Virus record (IMG/VR): IMGVR_UViG_3300046559_000373
Span: 1 to 30,813 of that record
From: a virus
Reading direction: 5' to 3' (one strand)
DNA: 30,813 nucleotides
Positions 12,411 to 30,257 of this stretch are shown here, piece by piece. Under the pieces are notes generated by a model that was not told the DNA's origin, made no database searches, and saw nothing but the letters and a program-made list of their open reading frames with translations. A program made the position numbers and the translations under genes. Positions within the stretch are counted from its first letter, which is position 1. Each line of letters starts with the position of its first letter.

Positions 12411-13175
12411 TTAGACACTCAATTGTCGCCATCGGAGCACCGACCCAGCATGGCGCCGCGTCAGATCACTGCTTGAGGTATTCTGCGCCCAGCGCACCAC
12501 AAATCCAGAACTTCCGGTGCCACCACCGGTCGAAGAGGCCTGCCCTTGAAACCAGAGCGCATGGGGAATCGTATCCGTCCCTAAAGCGCTCACCGATGTT
12601 AAGGCAGACTGTCCAACGACTGAATTCAGTTGCCCCAACAAGCCGATATAGAGCGGGAATGAATAATTCCCAAACATTGTAGCGGGACCGCTGAAATCGA
12701 CCTTAAAGTCAGGAGTGCCGGCCCCGACTGGAGACGAATAGATCAACATCAATTCCCAGATATATATCTTGCCAGCAGTCATCGAGAAAAAGAGTTCATT
12801 ATCAGCCGTCAGGGTCGTGCTCGAGGAAATATCCTGATCCGTCGCGGCAATAACATCCGTCCAGAAGGAGGAACCACTTGGCCCAGTGGGTCCGGTCGCA
12901 CCTTGCGACCCAGTGCCACCACCGCTACCAGTGGCGCCCTGTGGACCCGTTGGACCGGTTGGTCCCAGTGTGCCGGTAGGACCTGTCGGCCCTGTCGATC
13001 CAGCCGGTCCAGTGGGTCCGGTCGGTCCGGTCGGTCCAAAGGCTCCAGTGCCGCCATCAACCAGCACTTGGCCTGAGGTGCCGCCCCACACGGCAATATG
13101 ACCGGCTCCTACGCCTCCCGTCGGTCCAATTACTTGTAGATTCGCGTCTGGAACTGGCGTGTAAGTGCAGGGCAT
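12411..13175 (-). CDS. Collagen-like tail fibre or receptor-binding protein, 254 aa
   Basis: Residues about 1-40 form a short beta-rich head ([35 protein letters not shown]). Residues about 46-102 are a collagen-like Gly-x-y block (repeated GPTGPTGP, interrupted by SGGG) that should form a triple helix, and the C-terminal 150 residues are a compact beta domain ([56 protein letters not shown]). Phage fibres of this design trimerise and bind host surface sugars. Position right after the tail-tip gene supports a distal fibre. The C-terminal domain is presumably the variable receptor-binding tip. Confidence 0.82.
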
Positions 13176-22455: not shown

Positions 22456-23175
22456 TTAGACCCACGGTCCCGGCCAGTAATAGCGCGTGCTGCCAGACAA
22501 CGGACGCACCGTGCGCAGCACTTGCGACGGCAACGCCGAGAACTTAAAGCCATCCATCATGGCCTTGACGCCCAACGGCAACTCGAGCACGGAGCCGCGA
22601 ATCTCGCTGATGTCGGTCGGGAACGTATCGAAGTTACCGATGAGAAAACACAGAATACCCCGCACGAGCGACGGCATGTTGTCCGGTCCGTCCCCATATC
22701 CACAGGTATACCGAATCTTCACGGCCGCCGTTTCACAGAGCGCGATTGGCCAACTCTGGCCGCTGTTCGGTTCCACGAAACCACGGCGCCCGTAATCGCC
22801 GACTGGCTGCACGGTTCGATAGATGAGTGGTGATCCGCCGTAGGTTTGGGTGTTCCCATCGCCATCGACGTAATCGATGCTGACGACTGATTGCAGCGGA
22901 GGCCGCGGCAGTTCAATGCGCGCGCGCCATCCGCTCGAGCCGAAGAACGGGAAGCCATCCAGCCAGAGTTCTCGCGTCGCAGTCAGGAGTTGCCGGCCTG
23001 TCTGCTCCTCAAAATAGGACGCGGCCGCATCAATCCGATGGCCGGTCAATTCATCATCGGCATTGCCGAGCGCCCGAATGTGGAGCTTGGCATAGTCCAG
23101 CGTCAGGGCCCGAACTACTGGCGATCCGCCAGCGACCGTGCTGATCAGCGTGTCGAACTGTTCGAGGTCTCTCAC
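22456..23175 (-). CDS. Head-tail connector/adaptor protein (gp6-like), 239 aa
   Basis: GTG 23175, overlapping the tiny TM ORF as GTGA. The adaptor fold is visible: helical start RALTLDYAKLHIRALGNADD and ELTGHRIDAAASYFEEQTGR, the LTATRELWLDGFPFFGSSGW loop, PLQSVVSIDYVDGDGN, then IRYTCGYGDGPDNMPSLVRG (the common YxxG.g...P..v..A pattern) and a C-terminal VRPLSGSTRYYWPG. Such proteins form a ring under the portal. Although the portal is not in the window, it is presumably upstream of the glycosylation block. Confidence 0.85.
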   Translation of the reverse strand: MRDLEQFDTLISTVAGGSPVVRALTLDYAKLHIRALGNADDELTGHRIDAAASYFEEQTGRQLLTATRELWLDGFPFFGSSGWRARIELPRPPLQSVVSIDYVDGDGNTQTYGGSPLIYRTVQPVGDYGRRGFVEPNSGQSWPIALCETAAVKIRYTCGYGDGPDNMPSLVRGILCFLIGNFDTFPTDISEIRGSVLELPLGVKAMMDGFKFSALPSQVLRTVRPLSGSTRYYWPGPWV

Positions 23176-23252
23176 GACAGTGCCTGCTGCAGCATGATCA
23201 CAATACGCCAGAGAATCAAACTTGAGATGATAACCTCCATCGTCAATCTCAT
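23172..23252 (-). CDS. Tiny membrane peptide, 26 aa
   Basis: ATG 23252 overlaps the GT2 stop as ATGA and its TGA overlaps the connector GTG as GTGA. MRLTMEVIISSLILWRIVIM then LQQALS is one hydrophobic helix. It sits precisely at the border between glycosylation and head-tail genes and couples their translation. Confidence 0.6.
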   Translation of the reverse strand: MRLTMEVIISSLILWRIVIMLQQALS

Positions 23253-23866
23253 GCGAGCACCTGCATCAACTCGGGATAGGCTTCCAAGCGAAAGACGAAA
23301 CTGGTCTGGTCGACATGCTGCCACCGATAGCCGGCATGCATGATGCGAAAAATCAATTCCCAATCCCACGCGAACTGACCACGACAGGGCAAGTCATCTT
23401 GGAATAAGTCACGCAGCATCGATCGCCGAAAGAGTGGTTGCCCGAGGTCAATGCCCGCGCCCACCGGCGGCGCATAACGCAGCTCCTTCCGACCGGCATA
23501 GAGACAGGAACTGTAGGCGAATCCAAGACCAGGATCGGCATCGAAGGCCGCCAGTAAGGGCGCGAAGTGATTTGGCAAGTAGGCATTGTCATCGCTCAGA
23601 AAGCAGACCAATTCGCCCGAGCACGCTTTCAGTCCAGCCATCGCTGGTGAAATGCCGAAGTCGTTCATCCGCACCGGCAAATCGAGATGCGATACGCCAG
23701 CATCGGCGCAGGCCTGCGCAATGCCACCCAGATAATCGCCAGGTGGATGATCAGACACCACGATCTGTTCAAAGTCTCGAAAGATCAGTTTCTGCGTGGA
23801 CCGCAGACAGCGTTCCAGGCAAGCCACGCGGTCATAGACCGTCGTAATGATCGAGACGCGAGGCAT
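23249..23866 (-). CDS. Family 2 glycosyltransferase, 205 aa
   Basis: GT-A fold enzyme transferring a sugar from a nucleotide donor. Start PRVSIITTVYDRVACLERCL is the first strand and the uridine-binding Asp. QIVVSDHPPGDY and GISPAMAGLKACSGELVCFL lead to SDDNAYLP, the DxD-type metal/donor site; LFRRSMLRDLF and FAWDWELIFRIMH are the acceptor-side motif and ED-like general base region. Shorter than free-standing family members (which often exceed 250) but complete in core motifs. ATG 23866 overlaps the previous stop by one base (TGATG), with GGAG 8 bases upstream; GTG 23869 is the alternative. Confidence 0.87.
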   Translation of the reverse strand: MPRVSIITTVYDRVACLERCLRSTQKLIFRDFEQIVVSDHPPGDYLGGIAQACADAGVSHLDLPVRMNDFGISPAMAGLKACSGELVCFLSDDNAYLPNHFAPLLAAFDADPGLGFAYSSCLYAGRKELRYAPPVGAGIDLGQPLFRRSMLRDLFQDDLPCRGQFAWDWELIFRIMHAGYRWQHVDQTSFVFRLEAYPELMQVLA

Positions 23867-24084
23867 CACGATGGCTCCGATTCATCCACGATACTGAAGG
23901 TATATCGACGCATGATCGTTATCGTTTGCTTGATGCCGTCCTTTTCTGGATAGAACACGACGTCTGCCGTCACGGCCGAATTGACATCGAAATGCAGATC
24001 GAGTTTCTTCACATGCTTCAGTCCTAACACGTCGCAAATCTCTTTGGCTAATACCGAATGACCACTGATCGGCCTATCGCTCAC
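23866..24084 (-). CDS. Small hypothetical protein in glycosylation block, 72 aa
   Basis: GTG 24084 overlaps the CgeB-like stop (GTGA); the longer reading runs through that gene. MSDRPISGHSVLAKEICDVL then LDLHFDVNSAVTADVVFYPE is a helix followed by strands, a pattern shared with small phage proteins of the type ending in VTRFV. Not an enzyme by inspection. Function unknown; position suggests a link to glycosylation or to virion assembly. Confidence 0.72.
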   Translation of the reverse strand: MSDRPISGHSVLAKEICDVLGLKHVKKLDLHFDVNSAVTADVVFYPEKDGIKQTITIMRRYTFSIVDESEPS

Positions 24085-25004
24085 GCCGTCACCGCCATTC
24101 CGACAGTTGCCAGCACCGTCTGCAACCGATGGGCGTAGGTCGCATCGGCCAATCGTGCGGCACACGCCACGCGAATCGATTCCGCCGTGTCAGGATGGGC
24201 CAAGAGATGCGTGATCAGTGACACACACTCATCTTCCGTTCGGAACGTCGGCAGCTCAGGCACAATGCGATCGACTTCTGGCCGCCACTCGCTGACCACG
24301 AGCGCCCCGCAGGCCAACGCTTCATAGACGCGCGGATTCAGCGACGTCGCCGGAATCTGCTCCCGGTTGTAGTGATGCACTTCCCGAAAGACGTTGAGCA
24401 CAATTTGGGTCTGCTGATAGAACGCCGCCGTTTGACGTGGTTGAATATTGCCTGAGATTGTGAGCCGTGTCACGTCCGAATCGTTCCAGGCCCCGCCAAC
24501 CACATAACTGAGAAGGCCGGCTCGTGCCAACCGTCCTAGATAGCGATCGCGCGTCGGATTGCCGCCTCCGATGAATCCGACCGTATAAGGTCTCAGTCCA
24601 GCCCCTGGACGATGAATGTGCGGGTCATAACAGACCGGTAGATAGGTCGCGCCAGGATGACGATGTAACGTGGCCGGATCACTGATGAACACATGGGAAA
24701 AATTGCCAGACCAGGATGCCGTGTCATCCACTTCATACGGTTCATCCAGCAACCAGACCGCCGACCGTGGCACCGGTCGGTGCGTCTGGGCGAATCGTCG
24801 GCCATGCACCACAAAGACTAGATCCGGCGCAAACGCCTCCATCCGAGCGTTGAGGTCGCCAGCATTCCAGACGGCATGGTCATAGGGCCATCCCAGATCA
24901 CCAGCAGCCGCCGCCAATCCATCCGTAAAGACCGGACCACAGGACAGAAACGGATAGTCGACGCCAAAGACGCGCGGATTAGAAGACACGGGCATCCTGC
25001 GCAT
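24081..25004 (-). CDS. CgeB-like/GT-B glycosyltransferase, 307 aa
   Basis: The C-terminal half carries the donor-binding signature of the CgeB/Glyco_trans_1_2 group: NREQIPATSLNPRVYEALAC then GALVVSEWRPEVDRIVPELP, followed by FRTEDECVSLITHLLAHPD. The N-terminal half has Rossmann-like DLVFVVHGRRF, SAVWLLDEPYEVDD and a VGFIGGGNPTRDRYLGRL segment. Such proteins are found in phages and in spore-coat or S-layer loci and transfer sugars from nucleotide donors. It overlaps the upstream gene by 26 bases with ATG 25004 (GAGGAA 11 bases upstream); ATG 24995 is the alternative. Confidence 0.85.
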   Translation of the reverse strand: MRRMPVSSNPRVFGVDYPFLSCGPVFTDGLAAAAGDLGWPYDHAVWNAGDLNARMEAFAPDLVFVVHGRRFAQTHRPVPRSAVWLLDEPYEVDDTASWSGNFSHVFISDPATLHRHPGATYLPVCYDPHIHRPGAGLRPYTVGFIGGGNPTRDRYLGRLARAGLLSYVVGGAWNDSDVTRLTISGNIQPRQTAAFYQQTQIVLNVFREVHHYNREQIPATSLNPRVYEALACGALVVSEWRPEVDRIVPELPTFRTEDECVSLITHLLAHPDTAESIRVACAARLADATYAHRLQTVLATVGMAVTA

Positions 25005-25713
25005 GTTCCGTCAATTCCTCGTGGACGGAGGCCATCGTATCGGCCCAATGATGCGTCCCGTGATGGTGCAGTCGATTGACGGCGCTGATACGTTCCGCGC
25101 GGTCGCGCACCCGACGAATCGCCGCAAAGGAGGGATCGGCATTCTGCCAATGCGCCCCGTCAAACCGATGCGTCTCAGAGACCGGTTGATCCCCGACGAA
25201 TCGATGATTCCCAGGCGTCAGTTGTAAGCCGTGATTCGGTCTCAGAAAGGACGGTTTATTGCCGAACAGATAGCCGTGCCGGCGCTGACAGACCACTGGC
25301 GTCTGTGCGAGATCTAAATCGGCATCGGTCACATGTCGATAGACCTGAAAGAGCCATCCATAAAAGGCCACCGCATGCCGTGGCACCGTCGAGAGATATT
25401 CAAGTGCCGACGAACAGGACGGATCATCGGGCGGCCAAAAGAATTCATCCGCATCCGCGACCAGATGCCACGCATGGACGTAGTCTGGCTGTCTGAGTGC
25501 TTCGTTGATGGATTGGACTTTCGCTTCATCATCGATCCCGTCAGGCATCGCCACATCGGTAATCTGCACCCGCGCATCAGCCGCCAGCAGTGCTCTAGTG
25601 CCATCCTGAGACGGCGTGACAATCGCGTGAATCGTCTGGACCCAATGATAGTGACTGAGGAAAAACGGAATCAGTGGCGCTTCGTTATAGAACGCGGCGA
25701 AGAGTTTAATCAC
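24979..25713 (-). CDS. GT2-like glycosyltransferase (Glyco_tranf_2_4 type), 244 aa
   Basis: GTG 25713 overlaps the upstream stop (GTGA). The fold begins MIKLFAAFYNEAPLIPFFLS with HYHWVQTIHAIVTPSQDGT, and YVHAWHLVADADEFFWPPDD carries the DxD-like VADADEFF motif found in this compact group that often modifies surface polysaccharide. Later RVCQRRHGYLF-type basic region and PGNHRFVGDQPV are typical of the same group, and EHAQDARVF ends it. Substrate unknown. Confidence 0.83.
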   Translation of the reverse strand: MIKLFAAFYNEAPLIPFFLSHYHWVQTIHAIVTPSQDGTRALLAADARVQITDVAMPDGIDDEAKVQSINEALRQPDYVHAWHLVADADEFFWPPDDPSCSSALEYLSTVPRHAVAFYGWLFQVYRHVTDADLDLAQTPVVCQRRHGYLFGNKPSFLRPNHGLQLTPGNHRFVGDQPVSETHRFDGAHWQNADPSFAAIRRVRDRAERISAVNRLHHHGTHHWADTMASVHEELTEHAQDARVF

Positions 25714-26330
25714 GCGGCACGTTCCTGTAGGCGTGCCAGTTCATCCTCGAATGGCGCACGCGAAAAGGTCGTCAGTGCGGTCCGTCTCGAACAGTTGATC
25801 ACGGTCACGCTGAGCGCCGCGAATGGTTCGACCAGGTGTTCAAAGGCCGCCCGCATTTGTGGATAGGGCGACGGCTGTTTGTCTGGATGTTCGCCAAACC
25901 AATGGGACTTCGTGCCATCACAGCCCATGTCATACCCAAGCAAGAGAATCCGTGTTGCGCCAAATCGCCCAACCGCAAGATGCAACGCCTGGTAGCCGCT
26001 ATTGAGTCCCGTCCGTAAGGCATTCGGATTCGGATCAAATCCCAAGCTGCCAGTATTCTTGAGAATCTGAATACTCGGATCGCTCACGGTTTGCGCGGCC
26101 TCGAGTGAAAATTTCATCCCTTGGAAATCTGGCACGTTCTTATGCCAGTCCCACCATTTTTTGTCACAGGCATACAGCACGTCCGCCCACGGCGCCAGCA
26201 CGTAAGCATCGTTGATCGCAATCACGCGAGCCAGGCCCCGCACCGCATGGACGTCATCGCGCGTAAGACTCGGCCCTCCGCCAATGCACACGGCCGTTTC
26301 TCCAGACCACGGTTTCGGTGCAGGCATCAT
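25710..26330 (-). CDS. DUF115/MptE-like (motility accessory factor-like) protein, 206 aa
   Basis: ATG 26330 overlaps the upstream stop as ATGA. Gly-rich loop ETAVCIGGGPSLTRDDVHAV is followed by ARVIAINDAYVLAPWADVLY and ACDKKWWDWHKNV, the arrangement of DUF115/MAF-like and MptE-like domains; GT42 sialyltransferases share the GxGPSL box. GATRILLLGYDMGCDG adds a second nucleotide-sugar-binding-like loop. In flagellar systems, relatives attach pseudaminic or legionaminic acid to protein, so a glycan-transfer role inside this cassette is plausible. Exact reaction cannot be read from sequence. Confidence 0.72.
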   Translation of the reverse strand: MMPAPKPWSGETAVCIGGGPSLTRDDVHAVRGLARVIAINDAYVLAPWADVLYACDKKWWDWHKNVPDFQGMKFSLEAAQTVSDPSIQILKNTGSLGFDPNPNALRTGLNSGYQALHLAVGRFGATRILLLGYDMGCDGTKSHWFGEHPDKQPSPYPQMRAAFEHLVEPFAALSVTVINCSRRTALTTFSRAPFEDELARLQERAA

Positions 26331-26806
26331 GTGAAGTTACGGCCTGCTTCTCCGCGATCACCCTTCAGACCTTGCGGCCCTGGCGATCCCTGTTTGCCTT
26401 CGCGTCCGTCTCGACCAGCCTTTACCGCTAGACGCCACTTGGTCGCGCCGTCACCAGGTTTCTCGTTGGTCGCATCTTTGGCGATCCAGAACGATCCAGC
26501 CCACGTCACGCCATCGCCCTTCTCATAGGTGCGTGTGGCCACGTAGACGCCGCGGTCGACCACCATCGCCGTCTGATGGCGAAACTCCTTCACCCGATCG
26601 CCGTGTCGATACCGTCTGATGAGGAATCGGCCTCCATCCTCGATGTCTTCCTCAAGGTCCTCAATCCCCAGACCATCCTCACCGTTCTTGCCGTCGACGC
26701 CATTCCTGCCAGCGCCGATGGATTCGACAGCTTTCACCCGAGCTGACAATCGAGACAGCGCCGGCGCCAAGACACGCGCCAGGGCTTGTATTTCCATGAT
26801 GTTCAT
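26327..26806 (-). CDS. Collagen-like protein with carbohydrate-binding-type module, 159 aa
   Basis: ATG 26806 overlaps the large glycosyltransferase gene stop (ATGA). The N-terminal 30 residues are helical (NIMEIQALARVLAPALSRLS); a short Gly-rich run (GRNGVDGKNGEDG) follows; YVATRTYEKGDGVTWAGSFW and IAKDATNEKPGDGATKWRLA form a CBM5/12-like beta module with conserved Tyr, Trp and PG; the C-terminus (GREGKQGSPGPQGLKGDRGE) is a collagen-like stretch. This module order is often seen in phage virion adhesins. It lies inside the glycosyltransferase operon, so it could be a substrate or a surface partner of the enzymes. Confidence 0.8.
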   Translation of the reverse strand: MNIMEIQALARVLAPALSRLSARVKAVESIGAGRNGVDGKNGEDGLGIEDLEEDIEDGGRFLIRRYRHGDRVKEFRHQTAMVVDRGVYVATRTYEKGDGVTWAGSFWIAKDATNEKPGDGATKWRLAVKAGRDGREGKQGSPGPQGLKGDRGEAGRNFT

Positions 26807-29634
26807 AGCCGCCCCAAATCTCTCAAGCAAATAGCTATCTGCGATTTACACCAGGCCTGTTGCGGCATGGGCACGTTCGGCAATACGGCTTCAAATCGCT
26901 CGAGGGCTTCCTGTTTCCGCCCAAGCCAATACGCACAGATGGCCACTTCTGCCGCGGCCTCAAATTGGTAGACCAACGGTTGCGTAAAGAGCGCCACCGC
27001 CGGCTGGGGAATCGAAGCCGCTTGGGTTGCAAACAGATACGCCAAACCAAACTGGCGCCGAGTCTCATCGCGATACCATCGCGCAAGCGCCGTCAACGCT
27101 TCGGCCTTCGGAATGCCAAGACCGGCCGATTGCAACAAGGCCGTCGTCGGGTCCTGTCCAAGTTGAATGCGAATCACGCCTATCTGGTAAGCCGCATGGG
27201 ACCGTTCTTCTTCCCATCCTCCCAGCATCGCGACTCGCTGCGCGTAGGCATCGATCGCTTCTTCGAGACGTCCGGCATCATGCAGGCTTCGAGCGAGATA
27301 GAACTGCATGCGCGTATCGTCTGGATGATCCAAGAGCCACTTTTTCGCCAGCAGCGCATGTTTGCCAAACTTAACCGGAGCCGCGTCTTGGTCCTGATAG
27401 CCGTAAGCTGACTTTCCTCTCCGATAGGACAATCCCACAAGCGGTGCGGCCTGCCCGTGCCCTTCCAGGACTTCGTGAATAATGCCACGGTAGCGCGCCC
27501 CGAGCGCGGACCGAAAGAGCTGCACGCGTGCATAGCGAAGTCCACCGTCCTCGATCGTCACTTCATACGCATCACGATCCAGCGTGGCTGGCAAGGCGCC
27601 TTCGAGCGCATCATCCGCATCCAGCACGAGCACGTAATCGGTGCGCTGCTCAGCGATCGCAACCGCCTCGTTCCTCGCCCCGGCAATGACGCCGTGTCCA
27701 GTCTGCCAGTTGATCGCTGGGCTTGCACGCACGAACACATCCGCGCCAAGTGACCGCGCCACATCTGCGGCGTCATTCTGGGCATCACAGACGACCGTGA
27801 CGCAATCCACACCGGCTTTCTGACCGCTCCGAATCGCCCGTGTGACGACAGTGCTGACTTCATCGCCTTTCGCAATGATGCACAGGCCAACCGTGGGACG
27901 ACCATCGTGGCGTGCCGGCATCTTCGACGGCTTCGCCGGCAATTCCCACGGCTCGGTGAGGTTCTGTGTCTTACGGAAGATGACCAGGCTCGCGTAGTGG
28001 GTATCAATCAGCAGCCGGTCACAGGTCGTCAGGTCTTCGGCAATGACCTGCGCGATCGGACTACCATTCTTCCCGTCCTGCGTAAACCAGCCATAGTAAT
28101 CGTGGAGGATGAAATAGCCGCCAGGCCGCACCCACGGCACGAATCGGTTGACATCATCGCGCACACCAGCGACATCGTGGCGACCATCAATGAGCAGCAG
28201 ATCGATGGGCTTCGCTGGCACCGCATCTTCCGATCGCCTATTGACCAGACGCACATAAGAAGACAGTCCGGCGTGTTCAAGGAGTTCGGTCGCTTCTTGT
28301 CGTGGACTTGGATCAATCGAGACCACGCGCGATGGCGTGCGCGGTCCATAATTCACGTCGGGACGTTGTTCGGCTGCCTTCGGTTCGGTCCATCCGATGT
28401 CTTGTAGTTTGCACGCCGCTGCGAGCGCCAATGTCGAGAAGCCTTTGAATCGGCCGATTTCGACAATCTCTTGCGCCTTCATGCTCGTCGCTAGCGAGAA
28501 CAGCATCAGGCCGGCGCCAAATTCGCTGCCGCCAGGTGCGAGCTGACTGCGTAGCAGTGACAGAAAATCACCAAAGAACGGACCGAGATGATCCTGGTTC
28601 GCCACCAGACGCGGATCGGCAGGCATCTGCGATTCACAACTGATCGGCACCGTGCGGCCCGTTAAATGCAGCACGTCTTCCCACTTCGGAATGAGCGCGG
28701 CCGGCGATAAATCGGAGACAGCAGGAGTTTTGGGAAACAAGCCAAACGCTTCAATGAAGCCATCTTCAAAGGCTTGCGGATCTTCCGTGATGTAATCCTG
28801 ATTCTTTACGGATTCGATGAAGCCGCCCTTCCCCGCTTCGCAGAGGATATGCACGCGCGTGCCAGCCCGTTCCGCCAGCGCCGCAACACAGCCGAACACC
28901 TCAGTCATGGTGTTGACCATGAACAAGCCTTCTGCTTGTGCAATGGCAGCGCGATATTCTTTCGGATTCATCGATGCCGCTAACCAAATCCCAGCCGCGT
29001 GTTGTTCTGCTGTGAGTTTAGGATATTCACCCCAACCAGGATTGGCGAGCATCAACAGACAATCAGCCATTGCTGGATGCCGTTGCTTCATAGCACACCA
29101 GAGCGCAACGGTCGCCTCGAAGCCCTTCATCGCTCCAGACGCAAACACGAACAAGCCGCGCTGTTTCTTGACCACTGGCATCGGCTCGAGCATCGGCGAA
29201 ATCACCACACGATCTTTGGCATAGTCAAAGGTGTCGGCTTGCCAGTGCGTATTCGCGACCAGCGTCGCTCGCCCAGTCGAGAGCCAGGGCCGATGCACGT
29301 CATACGGTGGACAGCGCAAATCATTGGCTCGCACAATCACGCGCACATCAGAGGGAATCTCCATCCGTGTAGATGGCGTGCTGAACCGTTGCAGATAGAG
29401 CGCTTTTTGCGGCGTATGCTGCCACGCCTGCGCAACGGGCACATAGGTCATGCCGTCCTCGACCTTCAACTCGTCGACACCATTCGCAATGGCGACGGAA
29501 TGGCCACGATTCGTCAGCCCACGCGCCACTTGGAGAATCTCAATCTCGCTGCCGCCAAGCCCACGCGTCTGCAAGGAGGCTTCGGTGTAGGATCCGCCAA
29601 TGCTATCGAGCAAGAGCACGTCTGGTTGGGTCAT
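26803..29634 (-). CDS. Four-part glycosylation enzyme: GT4-like, SAM methyltransferase, GT2, TPR-like, 943 aa
   Basis: Residues 1-300 look like GT4 (GT-B): LQTRGLGGSEIEILQVARGL, VIVRANDLRCPPYDV and FVFASGAMKGFEATVALW, then FMVNTMTEVFGCVAALAE (the second acid of the usual EX7E is shifted). Residues 385-555 are a class I methyltransferase: EIVEIGRFKGFSTLALAAAC, VVSIDPSPRQEA, IDLLLIDGRHDVAGVRDDVN and WVRPGGYFILHDYYG. Residues 580-740 are GT2 with VGLCIIAKGDEVSTV and VLVLDADDALEG (DxD near 672-675). Residues 755-943 form TPR-like helices (MQFYLARSLHDAGRLEEAID). ATG 29634 overlaps the upstream stop (ATGA), excluding a longer start. One polypeptide could bind, sugar-decorate and methylate a glycan. 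Substrate unknown. Confidence 0.86.
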   Translation of the reverse strand: MTQPDVLLLDSIGGSYTEASLQTRGLGGSEIEILQVARGLTNRGHSVAIANGVDELKVEDGMTYVPVAQAWQHTPQKALYLQRFSTPSTRMEIPSDVRVIVRANDLRCPPYDVHRPWLSTGRATLVANTHWQADTFDYAKDRVVISPMLEPMPVVKKQRGLFVFASGAMKGFEATVALWCAMKQRHPAMADCLLMLANPGWGEYPKLTAEQHAAGIWLAASMNPKEYRAAIAQAEGLFMVNTMTEVFGCVAALAERAGTRVHILCEAGKGGFIESVKNQDYITEDPQAFEDGFIEAFGLFPKTPAVSDLSPAALIPKWEDVLHLTGRTVPISCESQMPADPRLVANQDHLGPFFGDFLSLLRSQLAPGGSEFGAGLMLFSLATSMKAQEIVEIGRFKGFSTLALAAACKLQDIGWTEPKAAEQRPDVNYGPRTPSRVVSIDPSPRQEATELLEHAGLSSYVRLVNRRSEDAVPAKPIDLLLIDGRHDVAGVRDDVNRFVPWVRPGGYFILHDYYGWFTQDGKNGSPIAQVIAEDLTTCDRLLIDTHYASLVIFRKTQNLTEPWELPAKPSKMPARHDGRPTVGLCIIAKGDEVSTVVTRAIRSGQKAGVDCVTVVCDAQNDAADVARSLGADVFVRASPAINWQTGHGVIAGARNEAVAIAEQRTDYVLVLDADDALEGALPATLDRDAYEVTIEDGGLRYARVQLFRSALGARYRGIIHEVLEGHGQAAPLVGLSYRRGKSAYGYQDQDAAPVKFGKHALLAKKWLLDHPDDTRMQFYLARSLHDAGRLEEAIDAYAQRVAMLGGWEEERSHAAYQIGVIRIQLGQDPTTALLQSAGLGIPKAEALTALARWYRDETRRQFGLAYLFATQAASIPQPAVALFTQPLVYQFEAAAEVAICAYWLGRKQEALERFEAVLPNVPMPQQAWCKSQIAICLRDLGRL

Positions 29635-30257
29635 GATCGAATGAGCACCACTGTATACGAGCCGGCCGATACTGGCGCAAACGATCCATTCCAAACGCCT
29701 ATATTAGCCGCCGTATGCGTCCAGGCCGGATTCTGCGCGGCAATCGTGGTTTCCACCAGATAAGCGAGGGCGGTGCCATAACTGACGCCACCCGTGCCGG
29801 TCCGGTCTTGGATGACCGAAAAGCTGCTATCCACACTGGAAATCGCGCTATCCGAGGCCACGACACCCGAGAGCACCATCGAATTCGCACTCACCGGTGT
29901 CACCGATCCGCCTTGGGCTGGAGAGGCTTGTGCGTCAGCATGATTCTGTTGGCCATCAAAGATCGCACTGGTCGCCGTGTTCGAGAAAGCCGCCGCAATG
30001 ATCGTCGGAAACGTGGTAGTCGTCCCAAAACTATGTGAACTCGATGTGATCGGACTTTCAATGTAATACAACTGCGCCGAGCCCCCATTGGAACACGCAC
30101 AGGTGTTCAAGGGTCCAAGGATCGTATTGGGCTGCGTGAGATCCGTGGGCGCAACAATCACGTTGCCAGACACCCAGAGCGCAATAAAGGAGGCACCCGT
30201 GCTATCAATCGTGACCACGGTCCCACCCACGTCCGAGTGCAACAGCGTAATCGCCAT
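29631..30257 (-). CDS. Beta-rich structural-looking protein, 208 aa
   Basis: ATG 30257 follows the upstream stop directly. Ser/Thr/Ala/Gly-rich, low in charge, with alternating strands (MAITLLHSDVGGTVVTIDST, ASFIALWVSGNVIVAPTDLT, ANSMVLSGVVASDSAISSVD, AALAYLVETTIAAQNPAWTH-type ends such as ALAYLVETTIAAQNP). The WVSGNVIVA and SYTVVLIRS segments look like a jelly-roll or Ig-like domain used in phage decoration or fibre proteins. No enzyme motif. A likely surface component and candidate glycan acceptor because it is coupled to the glycosyltransferase gene. Confidence 0.72.
   Translation of the reverse strand: MAITLLHSDVGGTVVTIDSTGASFIALWVSGNVIVAPTDLTQPNTILGPLNTCACSNGGSAQLYYIESPITSSSHSFGTTTTFPTIIAAAFSNTATSAIFDGQQNHADAQASPAQGGSVTPVSANSMVLSGVVASDSAISSVDSSFSVIQDRTGTGGVSYGTALAYLVETTIAAQNPAWTHTAANIGVWNGSFAPVSAGSYTVVLIRS

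Follow-up and report, generated by a model that had tools for sequence, protein, structure and literature searches.

Why should a phage place a compact set of glycosyltransferase (GT) genes among the genes for its own particle? This question is raised by the virus record IMGVR_UViG_3300046559_000373, and the window that we analyzed is the whole of this IMG/VR record, 30,813 bases, which is probably a genome fragment. The set—the cassette—occupies positions 23249–29634 on the minus strand, between a gene for a 208-residue orphan protein and the gene for a head–tail connector, and its central enzyme is a small DUF115 protein whose predicted fold is closest to that of the flagellin glycosyltransferase Maf. 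Our analyses suggest that this is probably a late-expressed cassette for the glycosylation of the virion.

All named genes of the cassette are intact and lie on the minus strand. In the order of transcription, the first encodes a 943-residue fusion protein (26803–29634), for which Pfam, PHROGs and sequence comparison indicate an N-terminal part with suggestive GT4 similarity (Glyco_transf_4, E 0.15), a clear Methyltransf_24 domain at residues 394–516 (E 6e-19), and a C-terminal GT2-like domain with TPR repeats that matches phrog_13126, 'beta-1,4-glycosyltransferase' (E 1.5e-9), and a GT of phage Tunturi_5 (30% identity, E 2e-17). It is followed by a 159-residue fibre-like protein with a carbohydrate-binding module (CBM) (26327–26806), by the 206-residue DUF115 protein (25710–26330), and by three GTs that pass the Pfam cut-offs: a 244-residue enzyme with a DAD motif (24979–25713; Glyco_tranf_2_4, E 3e-9), a 304-residue enzyme of GT-B type (24081–24995; Glyco_trans_1_2, E 1e-21), and, as the last gene, a 206-residue family-2 enzyme with an SDD motif (23249–23869; Glycos_transf_2, E 6e-12). 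The preferred starts of the collagen-like gene and the 304-residue GT are 26806 and 24995. A sequence-only reading of this DNA had named four GT-type genes, one of them fused to methyltransferase and TPR parts, a DUF115/MptE-like gene and a carbohydrate-binding/collagen-like gene, and all of these were recovered, the fusion protein being the fourth GT; what that reading had passed over is a gene for a 72-residue protein (23866–24084, minus strand), squeezed by 4-base overlaps between the last two GTs, for which no match was found in the relatives fetched.

The DUF115 protein is a strong member of phrog_4603, 'alpha-2;3-sialyltransferase' (E 2e-44, residues 16–200), and a weak one in Pfam, where the MptE-like match stays below the cut-off (E 0.0035). 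As a profile search against PDB sequences gave chance matches only, a comparison of folds was needed. The AlphaFold2 model (pLDDT 90.8) had CstII as its top Foldseek match with a probability of 1.00, the sole PDB match with E < 0.001, and in the VIA comparison Maf (5mu5) ranked first (Z 16.0, rmsd 3.8, 184 residues), followed by CstII (Z 12.2), Cst-I (11.8), MptE-type HPPK (10.7) and mammalian sialyltransferases (about 8), with the first unrelated fold at Z 6.4. The model thus places the protein in a glycosyltransferase enzyme class, with Maf as its nearest structural neighbour. With the GT42 sialyltransferases CstII and Cst-I it shares the fold (Z about 12) and the GPS, SG and GxD motifs, which align with CstII, at a sequence identity of about 15%; the CstII sequence used for this comparison matches PDB 1ro7 over its whole length. 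The GT42 enzymes act on oligosaccharides of lipooligosaccharide. Across 25 divergent DUF115 proteins, the invariant positions are G19-P20-S21, D56, W59, G108, N110, G112, G132, D134, H143 and H148, which comprise the motifs GPS, NxG and GxD and two histidines.

The cassette is not a chance assembly, since its gene order recurs in five other contigs. A scan with the DUF115 protein yielded 30 loci, and in five of them (L002–L006, of which L003 and L004 are near-identical over the cassette region) the genes for DUF115, the 304-residue GT and the GT2 follow each other in the same order with 57–75% amino-acid identity, a conservation about equal to that of the structural genes nearby. In four of the five the core is followed by the connector, and the fifth contig ends within the GT2 gene. 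The ratio dN/dS among the relatives is 0.12–0.32, and the cassette is therefore under purifying selection; in one close pair the GTs are 86–88% identical and have diverged more than the connector (95%). Other components vary: the 244-residue GT is present in L002–L004 and absent from the variants at L005:5958–8189 and L006:3229–6559, which indicates that individual GTs are gained and lost as modules, and the 943-residue fusion was found in the window and in none of L002–L006. L002 instead carries, between the terminase and a protease–capsid fusion, genes for a GT2, for a weakly GT25-like protein and for a stand-alone methyltransferase, and another methyltransferase gene lies between those for the CBM protein and DUF115. 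When the connector, the 943-residue fusion or the 208-residue protein served as the single query, viral contigs yielded no relatives, a result that means little because the connector is nonetheless conserved in L002–L006.

The same association is seen on a larger scale. With a DUF115 profile, at least 578 relatives were detected among viral contigs, and a further 31 came from bacterial genome contigs, mostly of Alphaproteobacteria and some of Beta- and Gammaproteobacteria. A survey of related phages for the cassette had been suggested by the sequence-only reading as a check, and besides the core in the five contigs it showed that 125 of the 145 loci fetched, some of them near-duplicates, have recognizable head or packaging genes within 8 kb of the DUF115 gene and in every case on its strand. 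In 82 of these 145 loci a CBM/collagen domain is found, usually just upstream of DUF115. GTs of the PF00535 family occur in 26 of 50 further records, with 47 of 48 matches downstream of DUF115 and at most 8 kb away, and the presence of CBM and GT2 is associated (27/31 versus 20/40, Fisher p 0.001, phylogeny uncorrected). From the CBM protein, nine further loci were reached, six with DUF115—one being the same contig as locus L070—and a seventh with a related GT in the fetched stretch.

Several named phages carry the family, and in D3, PAJU2, Eowyn, S20, CcrSC, P1 and P7 the DUF115 gene is paired with another GT and mostly with methyltransferase genes. In Pseudomonas phage D3 the DUF115 gene is orf7, which lies between those for capsid and connector, and a GT9-like protein (a label taken from the annotation of a related record) and a methyltransferase are encoded further on; ORF010 of PAJU2 was deposited as a 'structural protein'; and virus S20 has two DUF115 copies, a GT-D, a GT2 and a methyltransferase ahead of a head-closure gene. 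The jumbo phage Eowyn of Klebsiella has a stand-alone unit of three genes, for DUF115, a GT9-like protein and a methyltransferase (L034:5998–8083), whose orientation is opposite to that of the adjacent genes; the unit resembles the D3 set, suggesting that such units move as a block. In coliphage P1 (L040:4965–7523), pmgO (phrog_4603) and its paralogue pmgP (phrog_2111) both belong to DUF115, pmgQ is a phrog_1962 GT, and these genes are preceded by a promoter annotated as late. The sets of P1 (pmgO–pmgP–pmgQ) and D3 (orf7–orf12–orf13) thus resemble the cassette in having DUF115 beside another GT in a late or head-module position, in D3 with a methyltransferase, and differ from it in their GT partners, which are GT9-like in D3 and of phrog_1962 in P1.

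The surroundings of the cassette bear on the time of its expression. The minus-strand late operon spans from the right edge of the window to about 11.7 kb, and beyond the connector (22456–23175, minus strand; phrog_442, E 5e-14), which is conserved in L002–L006 and ties the cassette to the structural operon, it encodes a tail-completion/Neck1-like protein, an open reading frame (ORF) resembling major tail proteins, an 854-residue ORF in the tape-measure position, a 1131-residue ORF, a collagen-like protein of tail-fibre type and an M15 endolysin; the capsid, portal and terminase genes lie outside the window. The cassette had been placed between structural proteins and the connector, which holds on the connector side, whereas a structural role of the upstream genes for the 208-residue protein (29631–30257, minus strand, overlapping the fusion gene) and a 102-residue protein found no support, as neither matches anything. 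Likewise, overlaps had been claimed for every junction: seven successive ones (six of 4 bases, one of 17) run from the 208-residue gene to the last GT, but a 73-base gap separates the latter from the connector. Overlaps of 4 bases also occur at the HTJ/g10, g10/g150 and 271/1131 junctions of the operon, so overlap by itself is not distinctive of the cassette; it argues for co-transcription and for nothing special to these genes. Scans for sigma-70-like promoters and terminators gave none above shuffled expectation, and none within the cassette above chance. Support for the proposed late expression together with the virion comes from position, orientation, the overlaps, this lack of internal signals, the conserved position among relatives and the late promoter of P1.

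How might the cassette work? Maf O-glycosylates serine and threonine residues of flagellin, has no known sequon and is able to use Neu5Ac (N-acetylneuraminic acid) or Kdo (3-deoxy-D-manno-octulosonic acid) donors (PMC11339370), which makes it plausible that a stripped-down Maf-like enzyme primes a virion protein. Maf, to which the DUF115 protein is closest in structure, suggests a protein acceptor and a cytidine monophosphate (CMP)-activated sugar donor, with the difference that the protein of the window lies in a phage structural operon and flagellin is absent. As its donor the minimal enzyme would use either a CMP-activated nonulosonic acid supplied by the host or CMP-Kdo, which is ubiquitous—a donor from the host is expected, since NeuB was found in none of 50 records—and in the cytoplasm, while the particle is being assembled or earlier, it would modify serine or threonine of a virion protein. 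The primed sugar may then be lengthened by the GT-A and GT-B enzymes, and the methyltransferase may cap the glycan. We propose that enzyme and acceptor are made together because the cassette genes sit in the structural operon. The phage could gain in the stability of its particle or in surface properties, or its adsorption could be altered. More tentatively, the cassette could belong to a widespread and hitherto unrecognized class of protein-glycosylation modules in phages of Gram-negative hosts, including pmgO/pmgP/pmgQ of P1 and orf7 of D3, in which a minimal Maf-like transferase encoded beside the capsid, portal or connector genes puts nonulosonic acid or Kdo on serine or threonine of the virion.

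The neighbouring fibre-like protein would be a co-selected partner, either as an acceptor or as a surface fibre that binds the glycan. It consists of an N-terminal helix, a short collagen stretch, a CBM5/12 domain and a collagen tail, and its gene recurs beside the DUF115 gene. No CBM match was obtained in Pfam, and an alignment of the whole CBM proteins was too divergent for scanning. In the model (pLDDT 84.7), residues 85–131 adopt the CBM5/12 fold, with Z 8.1 and 26% identity over 46 residues to chitinase B (ChiB) and a Foldseek probability of 1.00 with chitin-binding domains. Portal proteins (phrog_1289) match the CBM5/12–collagen domain (26327–26806) in their C-terminal part, a similarity that suggests a head- or neck-surface fibre, free or fused.

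Virion proteins had been put forward as acceptors, with the 208-residue and the collagen-like protein as candidates. The general idea fits the likeness of DUF115 to the protein-modifying Maf, whereas both candidates are weak: the former is rich in serine and threonine (26%) yet has no detectable relative, and the collagen of the latter's family carries aspartate and proline in place of threonine (70 threonines at 2613 Y positions), so that we rejected threonine glycosylation of its own collagen. Threonine in repeats of the Gly-Pro-Thr type is glycosylated in some collagens. Such repeats are present in the 254-residue collagen-like tail-fibre-type protein (12411–13175, minus strand), with threonine at 13 of 21 Y positions, and this protein is a speculative acceptor; as a general acceptor it was rejected, because none of 31 fetched related records has such a protein, and it is at best a local one.

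The main competing explanation, which we consider unlikely, is that the enzymes act on the lipopolysaccharide or capsule of the host and thereby block superinfection or alter the serotype late in infection. Phage GTs often modify surface polysaccharides, as is generally known (PMC12619734), such GT and methyltransferase families are common in surface polysaccharide loci, and lipooligosaccharide is the target of the CstII relatives of DUF115 (PMC4202792); against this speak the lack of any transmembrane-like stretch in the cassette enzymes, their steady placement among head and packaging genes, and a closest fold that modifies protein. Still less probable is a purely morphogenetic or structural role of DUF115 and its partners with enzyme activity lost. 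The labels of the P1 and P7 homologues ('morphogenetic' or head morphogenesis) and of PAJU2 ORF010 favour it, but the GPS, NxG and GxD motifs and the two histidines would hardly be invariant among divergent proteins, independent GT and methyltransferase families persist alongside, and pmgO, pmgP and pmgQ are dispensable for P1 plaques on laboratory E. coli (PMC10695390); from the sequence comparisons, the label of these three genes looks like a misnomer. Glycosylation of phage DNA bases, known for other phage GTs (reviewed in PMC12619734), is very improbable, as none of 44 records, among them those of D3, S20 and P1 in full, has a thymidylate synthase/hydroxymethylase-type gene above cut-off, and the cassette lies with head genes and not with replication genes.

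Several points weigh against virion glycosylation. No glycan has been observed. At the level of sequence, DUF115 and CstII show weak similarity (hhalign probability 4.6), and the catalytic His188 of CstII (PMC4202792) could not be placed by sequence. The extra flanking domains of Maf are lacking, a single domain of 206 residues standing against a chain of 632, and we therefore call the protein Maf-like and not Maf because this multidomain architecture is absent. No single acceptor is evident, the Gly-Pro-Thr collagen being unique to this contig; in Caulobacter phage CcrSC the genes lie after tail and before lysis genes, outside the head module; and the dispensability of the P1 genes counts here as well.

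Virion glycosylation is, as the sequence-only reading had it, little studied, but it has already been demonstrated for phage-encoded GTs in the mycobacteriophages Che8, Corndog and Myrna, according to the accounts of this work (Freeman 2023; PMC12363180, PMC12619734). Our proposal shares with that system phage-encoded GTs that decorate virion proteins, and differs in that the evidence there is experimental and here comes from genes; in addition, the anchor enzyme is Maf/GT42-like and the phages are mostly those of Gram-negative hosts, features by which, and not by direct comparison of the enzyme sets, we set the two apart. We found no description of the association of DUF115 with head modules in the openly licensed literature, although an earlier description is possible; the TayeBlu paper reports one sialyltransferase-type gene and suggests a role in exopolysaccharide (PMC12772287).

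If virion glycosylation by these cassettes holds true, it would be common in phages of Proteobacteria too, with a chemistry of the flagellin type, and P1 and D3 genes that have for decades been listed as 'morphogenetic' or hypothetical would gain a concrete function open to testing. Consequences would follow for the stability of particles, their surface charge and their adsorption, and glycobiology would gain small protein-modifying transferases of interest. As the family is present in the textbook phages P1 and D3, the self-glycosylation of particles can be tested in laboratory phages.

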